The notes below the pieces were generated by a model that was not told the DNA's origin, did no database searches, and worked only from the letters and a program-made list of their open reading frames with translations. 64,000 nt of DNA from the NCBI GenBank assembly GCA_028716385.1, contig JAQUPX010000004.1, positions 256,234-320,233 on the forward strand, read 5' to 3'. The stretch comes from a bacterium (GTDB lineage Bacteria; Hydrothermota; UBA3073; JACQXS01; JAQTXJ01). Below, piece by piece: positions 54,201-54,948 of the stretch. Both the position numbers and the translations under genes were made by a program. Position 1 is the stretch's first letter; each line of letters begins with the position of its first letter.

Positions 54201-54948
54201 CACAGTGAGTTCCGTGCCCGGCGGCATCATCGTAAATGTTGTTATTATTACCAATAAAATTCCAGCCGTGTTGCGCCCAGACGTTCCCTATAAGGTCGGG
54301 ATGGAGGGTATCAATTCCCGTATCAAGTATTCCGATAATAACGGAGGAATCACCCGTAGTCGTGTCCCATGCGGCAGATGCATGAATTTTTGTTAACCCC
54401 CATTGTTCACCAAAATATGTGTCGTTTGGAGTGCTTTTGTGGAGTTTACGCAGGCTAAAGCCTGCGGCTACCGTCTTTCCTACTTGTTCACCAAAATATA
54501 TGTCGTTTGGTGTAGCACAAGCGTGGGCAATATAATTAGGCTCGGCATATACAACACCGGGCATATTTCTGTAATCTTTAACTGCTTTTAGAACATCCGC
54601 ATTTTCATCAAGAGTTAATTTATAAATATTTGCAAGGCTTGGAACTTTTACGGTTTTGCCTTGTATGATAACTTCCCGGATAGATTTAACGGGTTTATAG
54701 TTTTTGAAAAGTTCATTTGCTTCCCTAATACCATATTTAGAAGCTAATTTGTCTATTGATTCAATTCCTGTTGTAAAGGAACCTTTTTCGGCGAAGAGTT
54801 TAACTTCGGGAGCGAACTTAACAATTAAAGTTCCTTTTGCGAAGTCCTGGGCGTTTAGGATAAAGCTACTTGCAAGCAAGATGCCTGCAAATACATTTTT
54901 ACTTACAAGCAAGATGCTTGCAGATACTTTATAAAATTTTTTTCCCAT
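51286..54948 (-). CDS. Secreted subtilisin-like serine protease with beta-helix and T9SS-type tail (paralogue 2), with repeat insertion
   Basis: 1220 residues, the same architecture as paralogue 1: propeptide, S8 domain (ILDTGIDTLHPDL, GHGTHCAGTIG, LAGTSCAAPFVSGVAALV), beta-helix and sorting tail (AGIYFAKFKAGGYNKT). The catalytic triad is intact. Two features are absent from paralogue 1. A 33-base tandem duplication in the signal-peptide region (54868-54927) gives SILLVSKNVFAGILLASS. An 81-base in-frame insertion between propeptide and protease domain (54433-54513) adds VGKTVAAGFSLRKLHKS plus a second NDTYFGEQ. The beta-helix repeats (VSYTHGGG, ISYNTVS types) are shorter and more regular than in paralogue 1. 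CAGGAGAAATT precedes the ATG. Confidence 0.93.
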   Translation of the reverse strand: MGKKFYKVSASILLVSKNVFAGILLASSFILNAQDFAKGTLIVKFAPEVKLFAEKGSFTTGIESIDKLASKYGIREANELFKNYKPVKSIREVIIQGKTVKVPSLANIYKLTLDENADVLKAVKDYRNMPGVVYAEPNYIAHACATPNDIYFGEQVGKTVAAGFSLRKLHKSTPNDTYFGEQWGLTKIHASAAWDTTTGDSSVIIGILDTGIDTLHPDLIGNVWAQHGWNFIGNNNNIYDDAAGHGTHCAGTIGAIANNTIGVAGVCWKCKLLPVKVLDNNGSGSYDKIAQGITYAADSGAKVINMSLGGYAFSSLWQDALTNAYAKGAVLVAAAGNDAKSDSFYPACFPMVLAVSATDSNDKKWDGSNYGSWVDISAPGVAIYNTVLDSNYKRLAGTSCAAPFVSGVAALVASHNPTFSPGAIMNMLTGNTESIDSLNPAYTGKLGSGRLNAYLAITGDLKVHLAVIADTTKNLLGTNIVPSVGDTVNLVVTLLNNGMDANGVSATLHTDDIDITVLDSTADFGNALAREKVSNSVQMFKFSVSDTCPQHNVLFKLYLTANDSAYQDTVELSLGTSNTKNVTGAISINTIWKRGTYVVTGKITVNSGITLTIEPGTEVRLDSAKTIVIQGILNAVGTSTDSIIFTRNSPDTTKRWGYLWLKPLSKGNFKYCRIEYSGQTSAISCEGDSLYVGYSTISYNAGPGINTVDTCDAIITHNMITHNEMTGLAISGPALISYNTVSYTHGGGITAGNSPVIIYNTVSHNSGSALFGGGSAVISYNKISYNAGAVSTMGSAIITYNTISNNCGGIAVQGTPIISHNIFAYNFTGNGGTIWNYGASPTISYNTIIDTTHSTIYASGSCGGSIHNNNILTTGYAMYNNGTNSIPADSNWWGTTNTLKIDSLIYDSLDDESYGMVNYTPYFTHPSRSAPPYLDSVRVNFDVVSVETLKVYLTFSKPMNTSIAPAVSFSIDTNLTRYTFAGIWADSMHWNGYYFINEMVPDSIYKIRVSDAYDDSFLFPIPVDNRRTFRVYTAGSVSKALVADNVAAGVKLSWHHPSITNLLGYNVYRDTVSGGQYLLVNSKVITDTNYVDTTMPLGKTSYYVYTILDNNFKESSYSSEASCFVGVEENSVPKVFALSNPNPNPFTNHSTLMYQLPVKSNVSLRLFDLTGRCIKTLVDETKIPGYYKIDLKSKDYPAGIYFAKFKAGGYNKTKKLVLMK
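54403..54513 (-). repeat. Palindromic insertion with 30-base flanking direct repeats inside subtilase 2 (family F)
   Basis: Direct repeats 54403-54432 and 54484-54513 match at 28 of 30 bases. Between them are 51 bases with the hairpin CGCAGGCT-AA-AGCCTGCG at 54449-54466. The total added length is 81 bases, 27 codons. Paralogue 1 has a single uninterrupted copy of the flank at 50816-50845. Confidence 0.85.
54868..54927 (-). repeat. 33-base tandem duplication in the signal-peptide region of subtilase 2
   Basis: Two 27-base units (54868-54894, 54901-54927) agree at 24 positions and are six bases apart; each holds the palindrome GCAAGCA-TCT-TGCTTGC or a close variant. Paralogue 1 has one unit. 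Eleven hydrophobic residues are added to the signal peptide. Confidence 0.8.

Follow-up and report, generated by a model that had tools for sequence, protein, structure and literature searches.

A GTAG-tagged REP and a 30-base flanking duplication inside a subtilase gene of a WOR-3-like bacterium

Two neighbouring subtilase paralogues lie on the minus strand of the 64,000-nucleotide stretch of DNA analysed here (the window). Paralogue 1 occupies 47338-51249, and paralogue 2, which carries an insert at 54403-54513, is an intact open reading frame of 1220 codons (1220 aa) at 51286..54948, with S8_N (residues 39-185), Peptidase_S8 (201-431) and Por_Secre_tail domains according to Pfam. Read in the direction of the gene, and thus on the minus strand throughout, the insert region is composed of an upstream 30-base copy (54484..54513), which encodes TPNDIYFGEQ and has two changes relative to paralogue 1; a filler, GTAGGAAAGAC (54473..54483); a conserved block of 25 bases, the REP (repetitive extragenic palindrome) core GGTAGCCGCAGGCTTTAGCCTGCGT (54448..54472), with a GTAG tag and a hairpin; a second filler, AAACTCCACAAAAGC (54433..54447); and a downstream 30-base copy (54403..54432), which encodes TPNDTYFGEQ and directly precedes the catalytic domain. 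Within the core, GTAG...GCG runs from 54471 down to 54449. In paralogue 1, the 30-base segment is present as a single copy at 50818..50847 (minus strand), which represents the empty site; an earlier note on this DNA had described the same uninterrupted counterpart two bases away, at 50816-50845. Its description of 81 extra bases, with a hairpin and 30-base copies that agree at 28 of 30 positions (54403-54432 and 54484-54513), holds as given. In the alignment of the paralogues, the 81 bases add 27 amino acids in frame and consist of a 51-base insert plus the 30-base direct duplication; the chance odds of a 28/30 repeat at such a distance are near 1e-10.

The 51 bases between the copies contain the perfect palindrome CGCAGGCT AA AGCCTGCG. 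This hairpin pattern occurs once in the window and never in 100 dinucleotide shuffles, and the predicted hairpin of the REP core has a DNA minimum free energy (MFE) of -8.4 kcal/mol. The insert is open in the frame of subtilase 2, where it reads VGKTVAAGFSLRKLHKS followed by the repeated TPNDTYFGEQ; VAAGFSLR is the sole open frame through the REP on the gene strand, the other two running into TAG. Other repeats are found nearby. The signal-peptide region of paralogue 2 contains a separate 33-base tandem duplication (54867..54930, minus strand), of which paralogue 1 has one copy; each copy has a palindrome TGCAAGCA..TGCTTGCA, which the diverged copy retains in imperfect form, and neither has the REP core. 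Elsewhere in the window, a palindrome-like repeat unit occurs at 20092-20170 and 20965-21052 (GGACTCAAGGGCTTCTTAT twice, 60 bases apart, with related ATCCAAC..GGATAAGAATC units), and 14 copies of a 102-base unit occupy 60579-62768.

Subtilase homologues were matched in 34 of 40 related genomes, and the closest of these matches are interrupted at the insert. When paralogue 1 and seven homologues (one from a same-genus relative and six more distant) are aligned with paralogue 2, a clean 27-residue insertion appears in paralogue 2 only. The earlier note had likewise confined the insertion to one paralogue; a fixed protein feature, which would contradict it, was sought and is ruled out by the lack of the segment in paralogue 1 and all seven homologues. 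According to Pfam, the insert is located between the pro-domain and the S8 domain. In a predicted structure of subtilase 2 (shallow alignment, mean pLDDT 61.8), the pro-domain is fairly confident, and residues 145-196, which contain the insert, are low-confidence and unstructured. The downstream copy (54403-54432) equals paralogue 1 at 30 of 30 bases, or 35 of 35 counting the bases that follow, and the two subtilase genes are very similar in the pro-domain region; these similarities would fit a downstream copy that came from paralogue 1 by gene conversion or template switching, an origin we consider improbable. The TPNDTYFGEQ motif is conserved across the aligned homologues, so the identity may instead stem from constraint, and the changes in the other copy from its relaxation.

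The source genome is a metagenome-assembled draft of 3.27 Mb in 25 contigs (91.5% complete), which was covered by searches and by reading the stretches around REPs. Its draft state is what could speak for an assembly artefact, to which we attach next to no credence: the copies disagree at two positions, the insert leaves the reading frame unbroken, the contig spans 339 kb and the same arrangement is seen in independent genomes. When the 81 bases are used as a query against the genome, only positions 12-36 (GGTAGCCGCAGGCTTTAGCCTGCGT) recur. Neither the 11 bases before the core nor the roughly 15 bases after it match anything elsewhere in the genome, and no donor of these 26 bases of filler was found in the genome search or among the fetched loci. 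The repeat unit of 51 bases that the earlier note had proposed is therefore ruled out in favour of a 25-base core, and the remnant it had listed at 13156-13181 gives no BLAST match at E<=10, sharing only GACGGTAGC and a partial ACTCCAC.

The core comprises a GTAG tag and an 8-bp stem, with the tetranucleotide located 5' of a short palindrome (GTAGCCGCAGGCTTTAGCCTGCG). Six exact 23-mers are present in the genome, and a wider hairpin pattern, which includes CGCAAGC and CGCAACC stems, has about 22 copies. Exact REP copies are found on both sides of a gene for a Y1 transposase, the REP-associated tyrosine transposase (RAYT), at C2:182982-183251, whose product matches PF01797 above the cut-off (34.9 bits), NF047646, the NCBI model of such transposases, just under it (E=4.6e-22, 78.5 bits, cut-off 80) and NF033573 weakly; the RAYT and its REPs lie inside direct repeats of about 150 bp, as judged by eye. 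A second RAYT (L064:2296-2989, or G000:C2 about 340800-341490) is flanked on both sides by a GTAG hairpin type of its own, GTAGCGCGAAGCTTTAGCTTCGC, which brings the REP/RAYT sets of this genome to at least two. REP-containing units also form tandem arrays there, at intervals of about 61-80 bases (L059:1570-1850, L060:1829-1973 and L061:1869-2262). The nearest named relatives of the host are JAQTXJ010000016.1 and JAGMCI010000016.1. Based on the tag and stem, the exact copies, the RAYT between exact copies, the NF047646 match and the second RAYT with its own hairpin, the core is, as read from the sequence, a GTAG-tagged REP that belongs to the REP/RAYT system of a WOR-3-like bacterium. Both this identity and the insertion into subtilase 2 are well supported.

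Across the WOR-3-like phylum, the exact REP is found in 16 of 147 genomes and the wider hairpin pattern in 22. One of these genomes, G103, has on C215 a RAYT match that again lies between copies of the same REP. A RAYT is present in 18 of the 22 genomes with REPs vs 69 of the 125 others (Fisher P=0.02), a modest association. Three genomes (G029, G031 and G032) contain from 3 to 29 GTAG REP copies, mostly with CGCACCC stems in the latter two. No RAYT match was found in these REP-rich genomes, where the mobiliser may have been lost, may be absent from the assembly or may be a different one. As only 12 of 210 REP copies in the phylum (14 rows) fall in open frames 120 or more codons long, REPs mostly lie between genes. 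In-frame REPs in other genomes of the phylum include those in guaA-, moeA- and dnaE-like frames (L166, L174 and L242), names that were read from the protein sequence.

The movement of REPs is attributed to relatives of the enzymes of IS200/IS605, whose transposition proceeds without larger target duplications (PMC2817692); for this reason, long flank duplications were sought at other REPs. The scan covered 210 distinct REP copies and direct repeats within 100 bp on either side (score >=20), after masking of REP-like hairpins and exclusion of low-complexity repeats, and the expectation was derived from random positions in the same loci. Seven long flank repeats were observed vs 0.67 expected. 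After removal of three that are tandem REP arrays and of one second entry for the same place, three independent clean cases are left (Poisson P about 0.03), an excess that is suggestive but not overwhelming. Duplication as an invariable companion of REPs is ruled out, as most of the 210 copies have no long flank repeat. The earlier note had taken the duplication in subtilase 2 as evidence of how the units spread, and this claim stands in part: three more REP insertions have flank duplications of 15-29 bp, one of them with empty orthologous sites, but most REP copies have none.

These parallel cases are a stronger argument than the excess itself. Beyond subtilase 2, there are three further clean cases, with duplications of 29, 23 and 15 bp, each located where genes overlap or abut; the names gcvPA, gcvPB, moaD and moaE used for them were assigned by reading the protein sequences and not by a family search. 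In G014 (L197, L266), a REP and 17 bases of filler lie between two 29-base copies (27/29 identical), and the duplication leaves the first gene its end and the second gene its beginning. The counterparts of these genes overlap in G015 and G016, where the segment is single-copy, providing two empty sites. In G103 (L096, L270), a REP pair lies between gcvPA and gcvPB, whose junction is at ATGA, and 23 bases of the start of gcvPB are duplicated. In G012 (L073), a REP lies between moaD and moaE and the 15 duplicated bases cover the end of moaD (VSGG-stop); they include a GGAGG that, judging by its sequence, could be the ribosome-binding site of moaE. This last case falls below the score threshold and is clear by its gene context; an empty moaD/moaE junction was not found, there being no moaD relatives outside G012 in 29 genomes. 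In all four cases (subtilase 2, G014, G103 and G012), the REP has the orientation of the gene, and the duplication preserves whatever a plain insertion would have broken. This also makes the sample biased toward insertions with duplications. The insertion point is not fixed, the duplications range from 15 to 30 bp, and 11-37 bases of filler precede the core in the clean cases.

We regard it as probable that a single REP inserted into subtilase 2 with a coupled duplication of its target, and was kept because the coding sequence stays whole. In the proposed model, a GTAG-tagged REP, of the family served by the RAYT of this genome, would have entered the gene in one event that duplicated 30 target bases and added about 26 bases of filler. 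One route would be fill-in of the long overhang left at a strand break; another would be template switching at a fork nicked by the RAYT or stalled at a hairpin, with the nascent strand moving to a REP and then returning to a point further back. TnpA-REP enzymes cleave REPs in single-stranded form, and the mode of REP dispersal is stated to be unresolved (PMC8266576); the 3' end left by such a cut could in principle prime synthesis or join other DNA. Both fill-in and template switching fit the combination of duplication, filler and REP. Selection would then have retained those insertions into coding DNA in which the duplication restored the interrupted sequence, and in subtilase 2 the linker location would leave the motif beside the catalytic domain intact and allow the protease to be read through. 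We infer that REP and duplication arose together and were selectively retained, and from few cases we infer the mechanism of the duplication.

The main rival is a history in two steps, in which replication slippage duplicated the 30 bases in tandem and a REP landed between the copies later, with no target duplication; we think this unlikely. Consistent with it, the same gene contains the REP-free 33-bp tandem duplication at 54867-54930, so duplication here may be a process of a general kind, the genome has REP units arrayed in tandem 61-80 bp apart, and IS200/IS605 elements make no larger target duplications (PMC2817692). However, chance landings between short duplicate copies would be needed in four genera, and this history would not account for the filler that flanks the core on either side. 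Illegitimate repair without any RAYT, in which a break was healed by a scrap of REP-bearing DNA and fill-in of the overhangs gave the duplication, seems to us quite unlikely. The 11-37 bases of filler before the core, and the variable insertion points and duplication lengths (15-30 bp), are what such repair would be expected to leave; yet a core of 23-25 bases with a TTTA or TTCA loop is present each time, although this is no more than suggestive because the search for the cases started from REPs, and RAYT goes with REP in the phylum (18/22 vs 69/125, Fisher P=0.02). Extending the coupled insertion and duplication favoured for subtilase 2 to a general rule, that REPs of the GTAG class insert by a duplicative, repair-like route which copies 15-30 bp of target and adds filler with the hairpin, is a more tentative step, and one that we hold as possible while leaning against it. 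If true, this route would separate overlapping genes and add in-frame protein segments without breakage, and would differ from the peel-and-paste mechanism expected of relatives of these transposases.

In the open-access literature, we found no direct report of a flank or target duplication of 15-30 bp at REP insertions. Insertions into coding DNA that have empty orthologous sites and a long flank duplication are scars at the molecular level, which any mechanism of REP movement must explain. Such scars can be collected computationally from many genomes and thus offer a handle on this movement. The cases also show how overlapping genes can be pulled apart, or the linker of a protein extended, by a non-coding hairpin with the frame intact.

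GTAG REPs, RAYTs and in-frame REPs in genes, often genes of replication or repair, have been described before (PMC3733652). The elements described here resemble REPtrons in their GTAG tag beside a short perfect hairpin, their dispersed copies, a Y1 transposase flanked by its cognate REP and occasional intragenic copies in frame (PMC3733652, PMC8266576), but differ in their WOR-3-like host and in the flank duplications of 15-30 bp with filler in the clean cases. Compared with usual REPs, of which a genome generally has more than 100 (PMC2817692), the copy number is low (6 exact, about 22 of the wider pattern). With IS200/IS605 peel-and-paste elements, they share a related HUH Y1 enzyme and a hairpin substrate, whereas the insert in subtilase 2 has a 30-bp duplication that is missing from the empty sites. 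Rickettsia palindromic elements (RPEs) are likewise short palindromic repeats tolerated in frame in coding genes, but their sequence differs and they have been set apart by description, the intragenic RPE-4 and RPE-6 of R. conorii being grouped with CGTC repeats and not with the GTAG class (PMC3733652). Finally, the gcvPA/gcvPB case (L096) is an inverted REP pair and in this respect resembles REPINs, in contrast to the subtilase insert, which is a single REP with one hairpin at the site.
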